From assembly GCA_963576565.1 (NCBI GenBank), contig OY755046.1, positions 67,059,583-67,123,582 of the forward strand: 64,000 nucleotides of DNA, read 5' to 3'. The translations under genes and the position numbers were made by a program. Below the pieces are notes generated by a model. That model had not been told where the DNA came from. It searched no databases and saw only the letters and a program-made list of their open reading frames with translations. Positions 3,938 through 64,000 of this stretch are shown here, piece by piece. This DNA comes from Aspidapion aeneum (lineage: Eukaryota > Arthropoda > Insecta > Coleoptera > Brentidae). Every line of letters starts with the position of its first letter. Position 1 is the stretch's first letter.

Positions 3938-4668
3938 TAGCTCACACATATACTATACTATAGTAGTGTGAGCTATGGTGATCCTAATTTTTTCGAGAAA
4001 AAAAAAGTTGCTCCGATTTCAAATTTTTTTATATATCTTTGCGTTTCAGATGATTTTGAAACTTTTTTGTTGCGCCGTCTGTCTGTCTGTCTGTCTGTCT
4101 GTATGTCTGTCTGTAACGACCAACGCGCATAACTCAAAAACCGCTTGGCCGATTTTAATGAAATTTGGTACCTAGGCTGGGTCTTGGCTCGAGATGGTCC
4201 CATTTAAAAATGAACAAAATCCACCAAACACAAACGAAATAAAAGGGTGGGGGTAGATTTCAAAAATTAGAGTTTATGTGAAAATATGGCGTGGGTGATA
4301 TCAAACGAAAGATAATTGAGTCTGAAGTTAAACAAAATACATTTTAATTTATTTAAAAAAAAAGGGTGGGGGTATATTTTAAAAATTAGAGTTTAAGTGA
4401 AAATATGGCGTGTGTGATATCAAACGAAAGGTTTTTGAGTCCGGAGTTTAACAAAATACATTTTAGTTTTTTGTTTTTTAAGGGTGGGGGTAAATTTCAA
4501 AAATTTGAGTTTAAATCAAAACATGGCTTGTGTGGTATCAAACAAAAGGTAATTTAGTCCGGAGTTGAATAAAATATATTTCAGTTTTTAGTTATATTAG
4601 CTCACACGTACACTATAACTATAGTACCTAGTGTAAGCTTAGGGGCCCATATATTGGCAGAGTATTTT
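3938..4668 (+). repeat. Hairpin-ended (GTCT)n repeat family A, copy 1
   Basis: The element opens with a hairpin built on AGCTCACAC / GTGTGAGCT. It continues with a (GTCT)n run at 4078-4116, a conserved box (AACTCAAAAACCGCTTGGCC followed by GATTTTAATGAAATTTGG), and then about three ~118-bp tandem units containing GGGTGGGGGTA. It ends with a second TAGCTCACAC hairpin and GGCAGAGTATTTTT. Copies with the same plan lie at 39050-39815 (inverted) and 40270-40978. Open frames rich in CLSV or QTDR come only from the microsatellite and are not genes. The transposition mechanism is unknown. Confidence 0.7.
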
Positions 4669-25137: not shown

Positions 25138-26510
25138 CAGGGTGATTTTTTATAATTGCAAGATCGCTAGAACTCGGTTATTATTGGGAGTAGAAAGTTC
25201 AAGCAAAAACTATTCGGTTTGGTAAATTATGGCCACTTTAGGCCCACCATTAGTATTTTTTATAGGTTATAATATACAGGGGGCGACAATCAGATCAATT
25301 TTTTTAAATTATATACTATTATAAACTATATATTTTTGTATTTTTAAGTTCCGCAAAAAATTAGCTTTACAGATATATGTAACACTATGGCTCTATCTTT
25401 GTTAGTTTTAAATACGGTGCGGAGTATTTCCTGTGACAAGTCACAAACAATATTAAGATGTGTGGATACCTAATGCCATTGTTAGTGCCAAATTTTAAAT
25501 ATTTATCAACAATGTTGCTTTATTCCAATGCAGAAAAGCAAGAGATACTTTTATTATATGCGAAAAATAATAAAAATGCCACTGCTACTGCGTGAGAATA
25601 TCGAGAACTGTATCCAGCCCGATAAGGTCCTAATATATCCACAATTCTTAGGATATATAGAAAATTTCGTGAAACATCGTCTGTGGAACGAAAAAAACGA
25701 GTTGTTCGTCCAAACGAAGAGGCTAATTTAAATATTTTACTACATTTTCAAGAAAGCCCACAAATTTCTATAAGAAAAGTATCTTCCGCATTAGTGCAAG
25801 AAGGACAGGAACGCTTGACGTCTTTTACCAAAGTAAGAAGTGTCCTAAGAACAAATTCTTATTGGGCATATAAACAACAAGAACTTCAAGGCCTAACACC
25901 CGATCAGAAAAGAAAAGGGGTAGAGTTTTGTCACTTTATGCATGAAAGACTAAACGCAGAACCCCGTTTTTTAAATCACATTTTGTGGTCGGATGAGTCG
26001 ACGTTTACAACTTGTGGTCTATCAAATAGACAGAATAGCAGACTATGGTCCACGACTAACCCTAATTTTGTAAAAGAAATTAAAAGACAGGGAAGACAAT
26101 CCGTGAATGTCTGGTGTGGCATACTGAACGACCGTGTTGTTGGGCCATTTTTTTTTGAACACTCTTTAACGGGACAAATTTATTTAAATTTTTTACAAAA
26201 TTACTTAGAAAATTTTATGGATGACTTGCCACTAAATCAAAGAAGAAGATTGATTTTTCAGCAGGATGGGGCTCCTCCTCTTAATGTTCATGAGGTTCGA
26301 CAATTCTTAAAAAATAATTTTAATGAATGGGTTGGGAAAAACGGCACAATACGCTGGCCACTCAACAGTTTTGATTTAACTCCTTTAGACATTTTTTTAT
26401 GGGGTCACCTTAAAGATAAAGTTTACAGATTAGAAGCGAGGTATACTCGAGAGCTGAGAGAATTAATATCACTGTCTGTCAATGAGCTTAATGAAAATTA
26501 CGGAGGACCG
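25138..26510 (+). pseudogene. Tc1/mariner transposase with DD40D spacing, degenerate
   Basis: A mariner-type element whose left end is TA followed by CAGGGTGATTTTTTATAATTG at 25138. The transposase frame starts at ATG 25512 (MLLYSNAEKQEILLLYAKNN, a helix-turn-helix) and has in-frame TGA and TAA near 25590 and 25625. From 25683 it is open. Catalytic residues are visible: first Asp in ILWSDESTF (residue 104 of the 25683 frame), second in LIFQQDGAPP (195), third in LTPLDIFLW (236). That leaves 40 residues between the second and third Asp. Classic mariners have 34, and the DD41D (visitor/rosa) group is nearest. A conserved Pro in the usual SPDL is changed (SFDL). The last residues (NENYGGPPPQPLDFF) come from a hAT-like repeat that has replaced the C-terminus and the right inverted repeat. 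Confidence 0.85.
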
Positions 26511-26610
26511 CCTCCCCAACCCTTAGATTTTTTTACATATATTCCACATATTTTATAGAGACTATAGAGGCGTTGGAGCCCCTAAGACATATTCCTGGGT
26601 GCGCCACTGA
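26505..26610. mobile_element. hAT-like MITE end fragment
   Basis: The sequence ends GACATATTCCTGGGTGCGCC plus ACTGA, the same terminus as the elements at 32941-33030 and 52196-53486, and shares CCCTTAGATTTTTTTACATA-type interior with 53370-53400. It forms the abrupt 3' boundary of the mariner pseudogene. No left end is seen, so it is probably a truncated copy. Confidence 0.55.
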
Positions 26611-30736: not shown

Positions 30737-30879
30737 CTAAGAAGGGAAAAAGACAAAATTAGGCAGTGTCTCACGCAGGGGGAGTTTTGTTTGGTAAAGA
30801 GGTAAGTGATGTTTATTGATTTGTAGAAATGAAAGTTCCTTATCGCACTGGAAACGAGAAAAACACAAACTTAAAATTC

Positions 30880-31390
30880 ATAGTTTAAGAAATATGAATT
30901 TTCAAAATTTTGCCATTTAGAACTCATGGGAATTCATACCCTAAAAATCGCTAAATGACGTTTTTTTAGAAACTCAAGTCGTGGTGCCGTTTTTTTGTAT
31001 CTATATAGTCTCACTATACTGCAACTCGGTGCTTTTATCCATAAAATATATAGTTTAGGAAATATGAATTTTCAAAATTTTGTCATTTAGAACTCATTCG
31101 AATTCATACCCTAAAAATCGCTAAATGATGTTTTTTAGAAACTCAAGTCGTGGTGCCGTTTTTTTGCATCTATATAGTCCTACTATACTGCAACTCGGTG
31201 CTTTTAACCATAAAGTATATGGTTTAAGAAATAGGAATTTTCAAAATTTTGCCATCTAGAACTTATGGGAATTAAAAAATCGCTAAATGACGTTTTTCAG
31301 AAACTCAAATAATAATGCGATTTTTTTGCATCTGTATAGTCCCACCATACTGCAGCTTGGTGCTTTTGTCCATAAAATATATGGGTTGAG
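30880..31390. repeat. ~170-bp intronic tandem repeat, three units
   Basis: Units begin near 30881, 31051 and 31221 (TAGTTTAAGAAATATGAATT and variants). Each contains AAAATCGCTAAATGACGTTT, TAGAAACTCAAGTCGTGGTG and CTATACTGCAACTCGGTGCT. A related stretch (AAATCGTTAAAAAGATG then TTTTTTAGAAAC) lies just upstream of exon A at 32893-32925. The last unit runs directly into the 373-bp exon-bearing repeat. Confidence 0.8.
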
Positions 31391-31648
31391 AAATATATTT
31401 TCAAATTGCTATCATCCCCAAAATTAGCCATGAAACTTATTTTATACCCTACAGTCAGTGGCGTAAACAGGGGGCGGCTTATGGGCCTTACCCCCCTCCC
31501 CCCTCCCAAAGCCATCAAATATTAACCCTTTAAAACTTAATTTTTCCAAGAATTAACATTAAAATTTATCGATCCGTGCTCAAGCCCCCCCCCCCCAGTC
31601 ATTTTTTGAGATCACAACTACTAAATTCAATAATAATGTAGAGCTTAC

Positions 31649-31732
31649 CTCTGGCCCGTCCAGCGCCCCTCTGATAGGAGGGGTGACTTCAACAACACTT
31701 TCGTTTTCTTTGACGAAGCCATGGTAACCGTT
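31649..31732 (-). other. Duplicated exon A cassette 1 (84 nt)
   Basis: On the minus strand the block from AACGGTTACCATGGC to GGGCCAGAG is followed by the intact donor GTAAGC. It is preceded by TATTTTTTGTCAATCTCGAG, a plausible acceptor with a pyrimidine tract. The frame is open, the length is 28 codons, and both ends are phase 0 relative to exons A and B. Whether it is spliced is unknown. Confidence 0.6.
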
Positions 31733-32021
31733 CTCGAGATTGACAAAAAATATATGGGTTGAGAAATATATTTTCAAATTGCTATGATCCCCAAAATTAG
31801 CCATGAAACTTATTTTATACCCTACAGTCAGTGGCGTAAACAGGGGGCGGCTTATGGGCCTTACCCCCCTCCCCCCTCCCAAAGCCACCAAATATTAACC
31901 CTTTAAAACTTAATTTTTCCAAGAATTAACATTAAAATTTATCGATCCGTGCTCAAGCCCCCCCCCCCCAGTCATTTTTTGAGATCACAACTACTAACTT
32001 CAATAATAATGTAGAGCTTAC

Positions 32022-32105
32022 CTCTGGCCCGTCCAGCGCCCCTCTGATAGGAGGGGTGACTTCAACAACACTTTCGTTTTCTTTGACGAAGCCATGGTAA
32101 CCGTT
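32022..32105 (-). other. Duplicated exon A cassette 2 (84 nt)
   Basis: The same structure as the cassette at 31649-31732, with intact donor GTAAGC and candidate acceptor CTCGAG. It encodes the GFVKENESVVEV variant, where exon A itself has GIVKENESVVEV. Confidence 0.6.
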
Positions 32106-32392
32106 CTCGAGATTGACAAAAAATATATGGGTTGAGAAATATATTTTCAAATTGCTATGATCCCCAAAATTAGCCATGAAACTTATTTTATACCCTACAG
32201 TCAGTGGCGTAAACAGGGGGCGGCTTATGGGCCTTACCCCCCTCCCCCCTCCCAAAGCCACCAAATATTAACCCTTTAAAACTTAATTTTTCCAAGAATT
32301 AATATTAAAATTTATCGATCCGTGCTCAAGCCCCCCCCCCAGTCATTTTTTGAGATCACAACTACTAACTTCAATAATAATGTAGAGCTTAC

Positions 32393-32476
32393 CTCTGGCC
32401 CGTCCAGCGCCCCTCTGATAGGAGGGGTAACTTCAACAACACTTTCGTTTTCTTTGACGAAGCCATGGTAACCGTT
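32393..32476 (-). other. Duplicated exon A cassette 3 (84 nt)
   Basis: The same structure again, nearest to exon A. Its candidate acceptor is CTTGAG instead of CTCGAG, and one synonymous change is visible (GTT for GTC before ACCCCT). Donor and frame are intact. Confidence 0.6.
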
Positions 32477-32737
32477 CTCAAGATTGACAAAAAATATATG
32501 GGTTGAGAAATATATTTTCAAATTGCTATCATCCCCAAAATTAGCCATGAAACTTATTTTATACCCTACAGTCAGTGGCGTAAGCAGGGGGCGGCTCATA
32601 GCCACCAAATATTAACCCTTTAAAACTTAATTTTTCCAAGAATCAACATTAAAATTTATCCATCCGTACTCAAGCCCCCCCCCCCAGTCATTTTTTGAGA
32701 TCACAACTACTAAATTCAATAATAATGTAGAGCTTAC

Positions 32738-32865
32738 CTCTGGCCCGTCCAGCGCCCCTCTGATAGGAGGGGTGACTTCAACAACACTTTCGTTTTCTTT
32801 GACGATGCCATGGTAACCGTTCTCGAGATTAACAATGTCTAGTCGTGGTGCTTCGGAATCCCCAT
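32738..32865 (-). CDS. Cals: Calsyntenin exon A (start of first cadherin repeat)
   Basis: A 128-nt exon on the minus strand with acceptor TTTTCTTGCAG before ATGGGGAT and donor GTAAGCTC. The first two bases complete a codon, then 42 codons follow, ending in phase 0. It reads GDSEAPRLDIVNLENGYHGI, VKENESVVEVTPPIRGALDG, PE. YHGIVKENESVVEVTPP is the first strand region of the N-terminal calsyntenin cadherin repeat. It joins in register with exon B. The preceding exon should encode the signal peptide; it was not found up to 64,000. Only this copy has the full 5' part with a real acceptor. The neighbouring tandem copies carry just the 3' ~97 nt and have Phe for Ile (GFV instead of GIV). A MITE sits 75 bp upstream of the acceptor. 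Confidence 0.82.
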
Positions 32866-33034: not shown

Positions 33035-33372
33035 AAATCAATTGAACCGTAATGGTTACAAAATAAATTAATGAAAAACATATGCGACACCCAATGACGA
33101 GGGCGGGAATCGAACCCAAATCGATTCGCAGGTACAGTCGGGGACTTTTTAAATTGCCGCCCTGGAAAATAAAAAAAATCCTATTTAAAATTCGGAAAAG
33201 TTGTTTGAACCACAATAAAAAAGTTGTAAACCTTACCTATGTCTGTATACATACATATTAAATTATTTATTTTTATTTTTTTAATTGATTAATCTTGACA
33301 GAAAAAAATTTTTACGGCAATTTAAAAAGTCCCCGACTGTACACTACGACACCTACAAAAAGAAAAGTATGC
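33035..33372 (-). repeat. tRNA-derived SINE fragment, split by a MITE
   Basis: On the minus strand the two parts (33372-33342 and 33132-33035) join as GGTGTCGTAGTG, CCTGCGAATCGATTTG, GGTTCGATTCCCGCCC. The last block is a B box of RNA polymerase III promoters, and the first lies at A-box distance but is degenerate. A tRNA gene is excluded, since there is no acceptor stem. No flanking repeats could be fixed. Confidence 0.5.
33135..33339. mobile_element. 205-bp TA-target MITE (CAGTCGGGGACTTTTTAAAT)
   Basis: Ends CAGTCGGGGACTTTTTAAAT and its inverse, flanked by TA (33133-33134 and 33340-33341). It interrupts the SINE fragment. A related 173-bp copy lies at 41821-41993. The TA target and CAGT ends fit Tc1/mariner or pogo MITEs. 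Confidence 0.85.
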
Positions 33373-39049: not shown

Positions 39050-39614
39050 TTAAAAATACTCTGCCAATATATGGGCCCCTAAGCTCACACTAGGTACTAT
39101 AGTTATAGTGTACGTGTGAGCTAATATAAATAAAAACTAAAATATATTTTATTCAACTCCGGACTAAATTACCTTTTGTTTGATACCACACAAGCCATGT
39201 TTTGACTTAAACTCAAATTTTTGAAATCTACCCCCACCCTTAAAAAAACAAAAACTAAAATGTATTTTGTTAAACTCCGGACTCAATTACCTTTCGTTTG
39301 ATATCACACACGCCATTTTTTCACTTAAACTCTAATTTTTGAAATATACCCCCACCCTTTTTTTTTAAATAAATTAAAATGTATTTTGTTGAACTCCAGA
39401 CTCAATTACCTTTCGTTTGATGTCACACACGCCATATTTTTCCATAAACTCTAATTTTTGAAATCAACCCCCACCCTTTTATTTGGTTTGTGCTCGGTGG
39501 ATTTTGTTCATTTTTAAATGGGACCATCTCTGCCCAAAACCCAGCCTAGGTACCAAATTTCATTAAAATCGGCCAAGCGGTTTTTGAGTTATGCGCGTTG
39601 GTCGTTACAGACAT

Positions 39615-40269: not shown

Positions 40270-40978
40270 TAGCTCACACTACCACTATACTATAGTAGTG
40301 TGAGCTATAGTGATCTTAATTTTTTCGAGAAAAAAAAAGTGGCTCCGATTTCAAAATTTTTTATATATCTTTGCGTTTCAGATGATTTTGAAACTTTTTT
40401 GTTGCGCCGTCTGTCTGTCTGTCTGTTTGTCTGTAACGACCAACGCGCATAACTCAAAAACTGCTTGCCCGATTTTAATGAAATTTGGTACCTACGCTGG
40501 GTATTGGGTCGAGATGGTCCCATTTAAAAATCAACAAAATCCACCAAACACAAGCCAAATAAAAGGGTGGGGGTATATTTCAAAAATTAGAGTTTATGTA
40601 AAAATATGGCGTGTGTGATATCAAACGAAAGGTAATTGCGTCTGGAGTTAAATAAAATACATTTTACTTTTAAAAAAGGGTGGGGGTAAATTTAAAAAAT
40701 TAGTGTTTATGTGGAAATATGGCGTGTGTGATATCAAACGAAAGGTAATTGAGTCTGGAGTTAAACAAAATACATTTTAGTTTAAAAAAAAGGTGGGGGT
40801 AGATTTGAAAAATTAAAGTTTAAGTCAAAACATGGCTTGTGTGGTATCAAACGAAAGGTATTTGAGTCTGGGGTTCAATAAAGTATTTTTCCGTTTTTAG
40901 TTATATTAGCTCACACGTACACTATAACTATAGTACCTAGTGTGAGCTTAGGTGCCCATAGATTGGCAGAGTATTTTC
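40270..40978 (+). repeat. Family A repeat, copy 3
   Basis: Forward copy with terminal hairpins at 40270-40306 and about 40908-40946, a short (GTCT)n run at 40409-40434 and three ~115-bp units. Copies 2 and 3 form an inverted pair around 39820-40268. Confidence 0.75.
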
Positions 40979-46500: not shown

Positions 46501-46985
46501 CTAGTTTTCTATTGGCTATTCATACTTGTCCTTCTTTGCGTTAATCCAAAGACCTTGGGAAGAATATTTTTTTTTTAATGTTTTTAATTTTTCTTCATTA
46601 TTTTCTTTCTTTTGTGTCCATGTTAAAGGTAATTTAATCTAGTTTTAATGAAAAATTGTTTTTAATCAAAACTAAAGTGCCGTCTGAAGTACCCAATAAA
46701 CGCGAGAAGCATGCAAAATCGACATTTTTCGGTGTCTTAAACAAAAGCACCTGTTTTCATCGTTCAACCTCCTATTCAAACAACCCTTTTCCCTGCAAAC
46801 AAAGGCCTCAAAGGGCTGTAACCCGTAGCGCAGGTAAGTGTCTTGAAAAAATAGAGTGCCTAGACGTCAGTAGCGTAAGGCCAGCGATCCAATATGGGAG
46901 TTTTTAATGTATAAATTTGGATATCAACAATTACATACAAAGATTTTCGAACAAGTCATGCATGTTGTTTTATTTTTATTTGCAG
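46501..46985. other. No gene recognised
   Basis: The 83-codon frame at 46656-46907 has no domain I know; its end overlaps hAT-like GTCAGTAGCGTAAGGCC sequence. It is more likely chance or a repeat remnant. Confidence 0.3.
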
Positions 46986-47215
46986 TTACTATATGTCACG
47001 TACGTTACTATATGTCACGCACGTCACTATATATCACGTATGTTATTAGGTGTCACATACGTTACTATATGCCATGTACGTTATTAAATGTCACGTACGT
47101 TACTATATGTCACGTACGTTACTATATGTCACGTGCGTTACTATGTGTCACGTGCGTTACTATGTGTCACATACGTTACTATATGTCACGTACGTTACTT
47201 TATGTAGCGCACGTT
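46986..47215. repeat. 19-bp minisatellite, about 12 units
   Basis: Unit GTTACTATATGTCACGTAC, with variants containing CACGTGC or CACATAC. Each unit carries a palindromic ACGTACGT or CACGTG core. Open frames over this region (YYMSRTLL repeats) are by-products of the 19-bp period. Confidence 0.9.
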
Positions 47216-60670: not shown

Positions 60671-62281
60671 TTACAAAACACCCATTTGATTTCTAAAAAT
60701 CTGCAAACGAGTTTTTGCTAGTGGTTTCGTCATAACATCTGCTAACTGTATTTCTGTTGGTATTTGCCGAACTGCAATAGCACCTTCTAAAACTTTTTCT
60801 CTAACAAAAAAATGTTTTATGCTTATGTGCTTAGTTCTGCGATGTAACTCTGGATTATGAGCCAGTCTAACTGCAGCAGAGTTATCAACTTGAATAATAG
60901 GAACATATCTAAATTTCCAAATTTCTTTGTATAGTCTGCTTAGCCAAATAAGTTCTTTGGTTGCTTCACTAGCTGCTATTATTTCAGCTTCTGTTGTAGA
61001 GGTTGCTACTAAAGCTTGTCGCTGACTAATCCATGAAATTGCCCCATTGGCAAATGTAAAAACAACTCCAGAGGTTGATCTGCCAGTCTTTGTACAGCCT
61101 CCGAAGTCTGCATTACTGTAACATTTCATCTCCGGAATTTTCATGAAATTGTAGGTTATTCCTAAATCTCTGGTACCAGCAAGATATCGGAAAACTCTTT
61201 TTACTTGAACTACATTTTCTTGAGTAGGATTTTCTAAATATCTTGATAAATAGCCCACACTATAAGCTATGTCGGGTCTAGTTCCTACCATGAGATAAAT
61301 TAGAGTTCCTGTAGCTTGTCTATAAGGAAAGTCTACTTTGGAATTTTCTTTCCCTGTTTGAAGTATCTCTGCTGGTTTTAGCATTGGTGTCGCTACGGGT
61401 CTGCATTCTGAAAATCCAAATTTTTGCAAAATCTTCTCTGTGTAGCTTTTTTGACTAATTTTTATGCAATTTTCTGTCTGCTTTATCTCAAGACCCAAAT
61501 AAAAATTAGCTGGTTTAGCAGTAATTTTGAATTCTCTCTTCAAATCTTGAAGCAACCTATCTAAAGCCTCTTCAGATGTTGCTGCAAGCAGTTCGTCATC
61601 GACATATAGTGCTAGGAACATTTTCTCTTTATTTTTCTCTCTAATGTAAAGACATGGATCAGCTTCACTGACTTTAAACTCTAGTTTTAACAAATAGTCG
61701 TTGAATCTCTTATTCCAACATCTTGGAGCTTGTTTAAGTCCATATAAACTACGATTTAATCTACAAACTCTGTCTGTTCCATCAGTGTAGCCTTCTGGTT
61801 GATTCATAAAGATAATCTCTTCTAATTCTCCGTATAAAAATGCCGTCACAACGTCAAATTGTTTTAGATGCATATTTTCACTGGCTGCAACACTTAAAAC
61901 AGATCTAATCGTGGAAAGTTTGGCCACTGGACTAAACGTCTCATTATAATCAACTCCTTGACGCTGAGCAAAGCCTTTTATAACTAACCTTGCTTTAAAT
62001 TTGTCTACTGTACCATCTGGGTTAGATTTCACTCGATAAACCCACTTACAGGGTAGCGCTTTGGTATCATTAGGCAATTTTTCTAACGTCCAAGTTTGAT
62101 TTTCTTTTAACGAATTGATTTCACTTTCCATAGCTCTTTTCCATTCATAGCTTTCCCTAGTTTCAAGTGCTTCTTTGTAAGTTTGAGGAGTGTCAATATT
62201 ACAAATAATATCTTCAGCTATGCTGATACATTCATCTTGAAATCTTTTAGGTTTTTGTAAAGTTTGACGATTTCTGAGATT
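60671..62281 (-). pseudogene. Copia reverse transcriptase and RNase H (intact frame)
   Basis: An open frame of 486 codons from ATG 62131, but homology continues upstream without another stop to 62281 (YNLRNRQTLQKPKRFQDECI-like linker and ESYEWKRAMESEINSLKENQ), so the ATG is internal. RT motifs: PCKWVYRVKSNPDGTVDKFK, QFDVVTAFLYGELEEIIFMN (motif A Asp), SLYGLKQAPRCWN (motif B) and ALYVDDELLA (catalytic YVDD). RNase H: SWISQRQALVATSTTEAEII (TEAE), VDNSAAVRLAHNPELHRRTK, DVMTKPL. All catalytic residues are present, and length is normal for Copia. The break is at the upstream end: TAA near 62282 separates it from the integrase frame. Confidence 0.9.
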
Positions 62282-63990
62282 TTATGAAGTACTTGGTTCT
62301 TCTTCATCTGTTTCTTCACTTTCGCTTATGTCAGTAACATGTCTTTCTTGATCTTCATCTTGTTGTTCATCTTCTTCGTCATTTTCTTCTTCTTCCACTT
62401 GACTTTCTGAAAAATCTTGTCTTGAATCTTGAATGCAAGTATTTGGAGGAATAATTGGTATTCTGGTGTTGCTCTCGGTGCTTATACTGGAATGATCAGA
62501 AATACTGGATTTTTGAGCACAAACTTTAAGATACTCTTGAAATTTTACATCTCTTGAAACATAGACTTTGTTTTGCTGTTTAACCCAAATTCTATATCTT
62601 TCATCACCATCGTAACCTACCAAATAGCCTTTTATTGCCTTTTTGTCCATTTTTCTCCTTTTTTGAATTGGAACATGAAAATAACAAGCCGAACCTACTA
62701 TCCTTAGGTGCTTAATTCTAGGTGTTTTTCCATACCATAATTCAAACGGACTTACATTCTCTACTGACGATTTTCCAGTTCTGTTTAGGACATAAATAGA
62801 TGTGCTTACTAACTCAGCCCACATTTCCTTTGGAAATTCTACTTCTGAGCGCGAGTATTTTAACGTTCTTGCCATTTCGACTGTCGTACGATTCTCACGT
62901 TCACTACCTCCGTTCTGTTCTTGTGTGTATGGAGCTGTCAGTCTAAACGTGATACCTTTGCTCGCAAGTATAGATTTAACGTCTTTGTTGTCGAATTCGC
63001 CACCACCATCTGTCAATAACTCTTTGATTTTATGGCCTGAATTTTCAACAAGTGCTAACATATTCTTTAGCATTTCTTTGGTCTCTTCTTTTCTTTTATC
63101 AAATAACCTCTGTATTGAGTATAACTGTCTTTAAAAATCAGTAGATACCTTTTTCCTTGAAAAGAAGAATCAAAAGGTCCAACTAGGTCTGCTGAAACTA
63201 ACTCTCCAGGTTTTGTTGCCTTTTGTCGAGTACCAAATGGTAAACGGTGCGTCTTACCATAAATACATGGTTCACAAATCTCATTATTCAGTTTGACTGT
63301 AATGCCCATCTCTTTTTGTAATTTTGCTTTTACATACCTTTTGTCTTGATGCCCCCATCTCTCATGGTAAAGTTGAAGCATAGAACTGTCTGCTTCTGCA
63401 ATGTTACAATGGATTTCTGTTTCTGGAATGATGGGTTTAATATTCAGCTTATATAAACTCCCACCAACCTCTCTGTTACCATTTATCATTGTTTTTCCAA
63501 CTTTAAAGCAGCATCTTGTGCGTGTGGATCTAAAAGTACTGTTTGCATTTCTGTCATGGGCTGCAAGTACTGAAAACAAATTCTTTGATATACCAGGTAC
63601 ATACCATACGTCTTTTAATAAAACGATTTCTTCTTCAACTGAACTTTTCTTAACTGAATTTACAAACTGAATTGTACCTTTTCCAACAGCACTTAACACT
63701 TCTTTTCCTGCGGCTTTTATGCTACATGGCGACTCAAAACTTTCAAATTCTGTGAAATATATTGGTGTGTTTGTAACATGCTTTGTTGCTCCATTATCCA
63801 CCCACCATATAGACGTCTCTTGCTCTGTTACCAAAACTTCTTCATCTAAGGATAATAATGCTGTATTTGCTTGTTGTTTGGTATTTGCAGCAAATGTCTT
63901 TTTCTGGTTTTTCGGCGGTCTTCCGTCTGCAATCCACTTTTTACATGTTTTCACCCAATGTCCATTCAATCCGCAGTAATTAAACTTATT
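62282..63990 (-). pseudogene. Copia gag end, protease and integrase (frameshifted)
   Basis: Reading the minus strand from the window edge: a zinc knuckle YCGLNGHWVKTCKKW whose first Cys is Phe; protease SIWWVDNGATKHV (DNG where Copia normally has DSG); integrase zinc region YHERWGHQDKR ... CEPCIYGK; and catalytic core with the first Asp in SADLVGPF. In the core a small deletion plus frameshift near 63070-63100 follows SYTQY, and the second frame resumes in MLKNMLALVENSGHKIKELL. The second Asp is in LLTDGGGEFD and the Glu in NGGSERENRT. The acidic linker (EEEENDEEDEQQDEDQE) precedes a TAA at 62282. Gag is cut by the window edge. Integrase is inactive in this copy. Confidence 0.88.
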
Positions 63991-64000
63991 ACTCTTACTT

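Follow-up and report, generated by a model that had tools for sequence, protein, structure and literature searches.

Tandem exon duplication can lead to alternative exons, and recent intron gain is an already known kind of event. In the parts of three Drosophila studies drawn on here, new introns are found at AG^GT proto-splice sites in conserved coding exons, with repeat insertion as a reported source and tandem duplication adjoining (PMC2809761, PMC3296678, PMC2891723). Two of these reports provide the precedent for repeat insertion as an intron source (PMC3296678, PMC2809761). The third, in the part drawn on, attributes some Drosophila introns to tandem duplication of an AGGT site, and it describes young animal introns with visible traces of their formation as hard to prove (PMC2891723). 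Introners, according to the part of the report used here, form families with shared boundaries and, among animals and land plants, occur in two groups only, both of them animals (PMC9860276).

We analysed a 64-kb window of the Aspidapion aeneum genome (C9:67059583-67123582 of a 1.286-Gb assembly; positions without a prefix are those of the window), in which a calsyntenin gene resembles each of these systems in part. As in the Drosophila cases, an intron lies at an AG^GT proto-splice site within conserved coding sequence, is filled with repeat DNA and adjoins a tandem duplication. It differs from them in two respects: the 3' end of the intron is no recognisable exon copy, which leaves the duplicated-exon model unsupported for the gain, and the duplication postdates the intron, because all of the duplicated units already contain the intron's 5' part. 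As with Introners, the intron bears repeats and the relatives of the gene appear to be without it. Its satellite and transposon-like parts are dispersed in the genome; an Introner would be one of many introns that derive from a single repeat family and share their splice boundaries. As in tandem exon duplication, repeated exon sequence adjoins its source and the frame is kept, but here the copied segment begins after the first 30 nt of the exon and excludes its acceptor, leaving each copy an incomplete exon that retains the donor alone. Our preferred reading, to which we assign a probability of about 0.82, is that the three extra copies, as fragments of an exon within a young intron, are without function and are spliced out with it.

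The calsyntenin gene and its A/B intron

Exon A (32865-32738, minus strand) has 128 nt, the acceptor TTCTTTTCTTGCAG and the donor GAG|GTAAGC; its first base is codon position 2 and its last base ends a codon in phase 0. Exon B (30736-30564, minus strand) has 173 nt, the acceptor CTAAT...CCCTTCTTAG and the donor CAG|GTATGT, and it starts in phase 0. A search with the protein of exons A and B, padded to 793 residues, retrieved 115 proteins at E <= 0.001. The species-named ones among them are from arthropods, with the weevils Cylas and Euwallacea as the best matches; many carry the calsyntenin name and others are unnamed, hypothetical or cadherin-domain proteins. The A+B protein is 89% identical to weevil Calsyntenin-1 from Cylas (P0001) and Euwallacea (P0002), from which the window differs by two extra loop residues and the intron, and 80% identical to the Rhynchophorus protein. 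The top match, P0001, has the Pfam domain CLSTN_C. Pfam assigned no family to exon A alone, and to exon B alone it gave a sub-threshold cadherin match (14 bits versus a cut-off of 28.8). Among PDB entries, the sequence search found no calsyntenin and returned a single match, protocadherin-18, at E = 0.84. The fold search placed cadherin repeats at the top ranks (best E = 0.03) and Ig-like domains among the lower ones, with none of 708 matches reaching E <= 0.001.

We also searched the 304 kb around the locus, which contain no N, by tblastn with the 942-residue relative P0002. This gave 12 collinear exon matches on the minus strand with 68-100% identity, which span exon A to residue 648; the first, signal-peptide exon is not among them. 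Over the part covered, the calsyntenin gene is otherwise intact. By the homology of its N-terminal cadherin repeat and the order of its downstream exons, the gene is identified as a calsyntenin, in agreement with the preliminary description. Tblastn found no second A+B copy in the 304 kb that could be the true calsyntenin gene. A DNA search of the 1.286-Gb genome with exon A only found its sequence nowhere else among the candidates scored (40 of 221). The intron 3' of exon B is about 124 kb long, extending from 30564 to C9:66965868, beyond the window.

Intron A/B (30737-32737, minus strand) has 2001 nt and interrupts the coding sequence at GAG^GTT. The preliminary description had assumed this intron as given; it was right that exon A ends and exon B starts in phase 0, but the intron itself is probably new. 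Of 72 short database proteins, 71 read straight across the A/B boundary, including one that is 90% identical to the window, and from the remaining one (P0165) the stretch is absent. These 72 proteins were obtained with a query of A, cassette and B without padding, at E <= 1e-10 and lengths of 70-222 aa, limits under which open reading frames ending exactly at the A/B site may be under-sampled. Eight are annotated models, from which an intron may already have been removed, and 64 come from assemblies without a gene-model name. Some of the latter may be transcripts (P0134 starts like a full N terminus), and many of the short proteins begin in non-calsyntenin residues, like unspliced genomic exons. 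Of the 71 proteins, 47 continue through exon B, 19 of them stopping exactly at the exon B donor residue (as in GKQSVR) and the rest extending further; another 23 reach a different intron after PFE(V), and P0134 does neither. Given the uninterrupted site in 71 of the 72, the intron is probably a lineage-specific gain at GAG^GTT, made in the A. aeneum lineage as judged from relatives compared as proteins.

The coding sequence flanking the intron is intact and its splice signals are canonical, with a GTAAGC donor, a TTAG acceptor and, 26 nt ahead of the end of the latter, a branch-like CTAAT; we infer that the intron is spliced out. In a predicted model of P0117 (mean pLDDT 79), residues 57 and 58 flank the A/B point, which lies in the loop connecting strands 44-48 and 58-66. 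This loop varies in length among insects, and it is there that the window protein has its two additional residues relative to Cylas and Euwallacea.

Structure and history of the tandem units

At 31374-32835, Tandem Repeats Finder (TRF) detected a 373-nt unit in 4.0 copies (95% matches), which bears out the earlier claim of three near-identical units of about 373 bp located 3' of exon A. Unit 1 (32491-32835, minus strand, 345 nt) consists of the terminal 98 nt of exon A itself (32835-32738, minus strand), the donor and intron sequence, and lacks 27 nt that are present in units 2-4. Unit 2 (32120-32490, 371 nt), unit 3 (31747-32119, 373 nt) and unit 4 (31374-31746, 373 nt), all on the minus strand, likewise correspond to the last 98 of the 128 nt of exon A, the GTAAGC donor and the adjoining intron. 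The spacing of the units is 345, 371 and 373 nt, and the 3' end of unit 4 passes seamlessly into an array of a 169-nt repeat. Within exon A the 84-nt core occupies 32821-32738 (minus strand); its counterparts in units 2, 3 and 4 are at 32476-32393, 32105-32022 and 31732-31649, as originally placed. Each core consists of 28 open codons followed directly by GTAAGC. Reading each core confirmed that the donors are intact and that the cores are in phase 0 and would preserve the frame. The reported Ile-to-Phe change (GIV to GFV) is present in all three extra copies, and the core of unit 2 also carries a silent C to T change.

Every copy has the joint CATATATTTT|TTGTCAATCTYGAGAAC, with no shared and no extra bases. 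Unit 4 continues the left half as CATATATTTTATGG, on the margin of the 169-nt array (30872-31405), and the right half is exon A from the 31st base onwards. Because the joint starts at this base, the duplication omitted the true acceptor together with the first 30 exon nucleotides. The homology of the copies to exon A begins 14 nt ahead of the acceptor that had been proposed for them (TTGTYAATCTYGAG), so the AG and half of the supposed pyrimidine tract are former coding sequence; the AG belongs to the exon A Leu-Glu codons CTC GAG.

Pairwise identity among the four units is 96.4-99.2% (gap columns left out). Unit 1 differs from the other units by 2.4-3.6%, and those differ from one another by 0.8-1.6%. 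All 13 variable sites are compatible with the unit tree (U1,(U4,(U2,U3))), and growth of the units looks stepwise, neither a single burst nor an assembly echo. The proposal of a recent tandem amplification stands, as a serial and fairly young one. Variable columns are about as frequent in the exon-derived part (4 of 98) as in the intron-derived part (9 of 240; Fisher P = 1, gap columns left out), so the former is no more conserved, in a test of low power owing to the few variable sites.

At the site that has Phe in the copies, 166 motif-matching calsyntenins have Leu (153) or Ile (13) and none has Phe; these were drawn from 187 retrieved proteins, the 21 non-matching ones being left uncounted. 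The motif occurs twice in none of the 187. A search of other assemblies for the cassette open reading frame with its flanks gave one candidate and no match, and the titles and abstract openings of literature on calsyntenin exons and cadherins in insects mention no such duplication.

Splice signals of the copies and competing readings

The preliminary description had assigned the copies a credible pyrimidine-tract acceptor and a possible branch point, and neither held up. With a general 3' splice-site matrix, the proposed acceptor GAG|AAC scores 0.5-1.5 bits, compared with 7.1-12.4 bits for nine acceptors of the same gene; the matrix that gives 0.5 and 1.5 for the cassettes gives 12.3 and 10.9 for the acceptors of exons A and B. 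With a second matrix, built from the gene's nine acceptors by leave-one-out, the cassettes score -3.3 and the gene's own acceptors 4.9-11.7. The nine acceptors represent 9 of the 12 exons (exons F, J and K were omitted because their tblastn edges were not clean), with splice points set by eye at the nearest AG, and all are CAG or TAG rather than GAG. Between 34 and 43% of the 6,559 AGs on both strands of the window score at least as high as the proposed acceptors, and the GAG|AAC string is also present inside exon A. The 50 nt ahead of each cassette acceptor contain no YTNAY branch site, whereas such branch-like sites lie 39 nt upstream of exon A and 26 nt upstream of exon B. The parts of two papers that we drew on give no figure for GAG acceptors in insects (PMC1657060, PMC3250501). 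The 5' splice site is predicted to be sound, since every copy has GAG|GTAAGC as in exon A, and a length of 84 nt is a multiple of three and open; a 3' splice site and branch site are not predicted. By these predictions, usable cassette acceptors are poorly supported and the evidence stands against them.

Each copy has its best acceptor-like site at CAG|AGGGG (32414, 32043 and 31670; 8.45 bits), use of which would produce a 22-nt micro-exon and a frameshift. These sites sit 22 nt ahead of each copied donor, and three micro-exons are jointly in frame while one or two are not. Another acceptor-like site, TTTCTCGTTTCCAG|TGCG at 30847, scores 10.6 bits and lies 111 nt ahead of exon B; its use would add 36 open codons and then an in-frame TAG.

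If the three 84-nt cores were real in-frame cassette exons, they would lengthen cadherin repeat 1 by 28, 56 or 84 residues. The cores are open and in phase 0, their donors are intact, and the A/B point lies in a length-variable loop of the predicted P0117 model, where an insert might be tolerated. Against this, the acceptors score much lower than any of the gene's scored acceptors, at the level of random AGs, and lack a YTNAY branch site within 50 nt; the exon part diverges no less than the intron part; Phe stands where all 166 motif matches have Leu or Ile; and repeated first strands would probably have no obvious place in the fold. We therefore regard functional cassettes as highly improbable. 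The CAG|AGGGG sites raise the question of whether the copies act instead as poison exons through the frameshifting micro-exon, since their score falls within the range of the nine real acceptors. The same string occurs inside exon A, where its use would remove most of the exon, and 22 nt is very short for an exon, which makes this reading quite improbable.

Two further readings concern the insertion and the assembly rather than the copies. The A/B insertion could be a recent disruption that inactivates calsyntenin in the sequenced haplotype and not a spliced intron at all: the inserted DNA is rich in repeats, and read-through of the exon A donor meets a stop at the 37th codon past exon A. Yet the insertion has a donor, a branch-like site and an acceptor that are all strong, the frame is exact on either side, the 12 exon matches remain 68-100% identical to the relative, and a divergence among units of 2.4-3.6% means that the insertion is not brand new; a disrupted gene is very improbable on this evidence. 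We rate an artefact of assembly as the least probable explanation. G runs of 10-12 and a tandem structure are difficult to assemble, but assembly stutter is made unlikely by 13 variable sites that fit one tree, by the 27-nt indel that unit 1 has to itself and by the absence of N over 304 kb. Non-functional fragments in a young, spliced intron remain our preferred reading.

Source of the intron and meaning of the locus

The intron holds two kinds of repeat DNA. The 169-nt array (30872-31405, minus strand, about 3.2 copies by TRF) is a satellite dispersed through the genome, with at least 194 genome matches (39 of 2,491 candidates scored); among the matches listed, the top one away from this locus has 79% identity. 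A transposon-like stretch, at 32570-32690 (minus strand, approximate edges) in unit 1 and present in every unit, measures about 110-140 nt per unit and runs from a G run to an end reading CGCCACTGAC. Degenerate copies of it occur elsewhere in the genome: 42 of the 44 listed repeat-region matches hit this part with 74-90% identity, and the other two are exon A at this locus. The 135 nt adjoining exon B had only a self-match among the matches listed.

Several other sources for the intron ends were considered. A degenerate copy of exon A ahead of exon B was rejected, with 855 of 1000 shuffles scoring equal or better. A degenerate copy of exon B in the same place, suggested by an in-frame NKHH seen by eye, was matched by 65 of 2000 dinucleotide shuffles and by 35 of 455 minus-strand and 35 of 474 plus-strand control windows, and was also set aside. 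Comparison of the new intron's ends with the ends of neighbouring introns revealed no link (664 of 1000 and 959 of 1000 shuffles as good), and by eye the intron's 5' end, GTAAGCTC, is unlike exon B, GTTTGTCG. Gain by tandem duplication of an AGGT site found no support, since the 3' end resembles neither exon A nor exon B. By eye there is no target-site duplication beyond AGGT, a repeat that is uninformative in this regard because the splice sites themselves require it. Of the simple sources for the A/B intron, this leaves the insertion of repeat DNA.

Repeats and mobile elements were also seen elsewhere in the window. Upstream of exon A, a perfect 28-nt inverted repeat whose arms are 155 nt apart (33132-33342) is MITE-like. 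Arrays of a 113-119-nt tandem repeat, alike by eye in their TRF consensus, lie at 4237-4594, 39127-39484 (in reverse orientation) and 40561-40882, and a 19-nt tandem repeat with nearly twelve copies (TRF) lies at 46985-47205. Copia-type retroelement reading frames occupy 60671-63999 on the minus strand (RVT_2, E = 1.3e-71 at 60671-62281), and an open frame at 25626-26558 on the plus strand resembles a Tc1/Tc3-type transposase below the Pfam cut-off.

The preferred reading suggests the following history. Judging from the comparison with relatives, a single ancestral A+B exon of about 295 nt in a weevil calsyntenin gene would have been split by a new intron at the proto-splice site GAG^GTT; this intron has good splice signals and is now filled with satellite and transposon-like DNA. 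A tandem duplication, whose joint can be read directly in the sequence, then brought exon A, from its 31st base onwards (TTGTTAATC), up against a point in the edge of the satellite (CATATATTTT). The duplicated segment is made of 98 nt of exon, the donor and about 275 nt of new intron. On the unit tree, Phe probably arose in the first copy, and more duplications would have produced the order (U1,(U4,(U2,U3))). Since the true acceptor was not part of the duplicated segment, the copies would leave with the intron and the protein would be unchanged. On the best reading the duplications were neutral.

A more far-reaching version carries only a slim chance in our estimate. It holds that repeat DNA, satellite and transposon-like, became a working spliceosomal intron at a proto-splice site in a conserved neuronal gene of a beetle, and that its tandem growth carries donor-bearing exon fragments, variable in number from one individual to another, that are spliced in from time to time. 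If this were true, the birth of an intron and the raw material for the birth of exons would lie side by side.

At the level of our preferred reading, the locus combines an intron full of repeats, in a position where relatives have continuous coding sequence, with a later series of tandem duplications that can be put in order. It also offers a caution, in that an open, in-frame copy of an exon need not be an alternative exon. A partial exon duplication without an acceptor can probably stay harmlessly within an intron.
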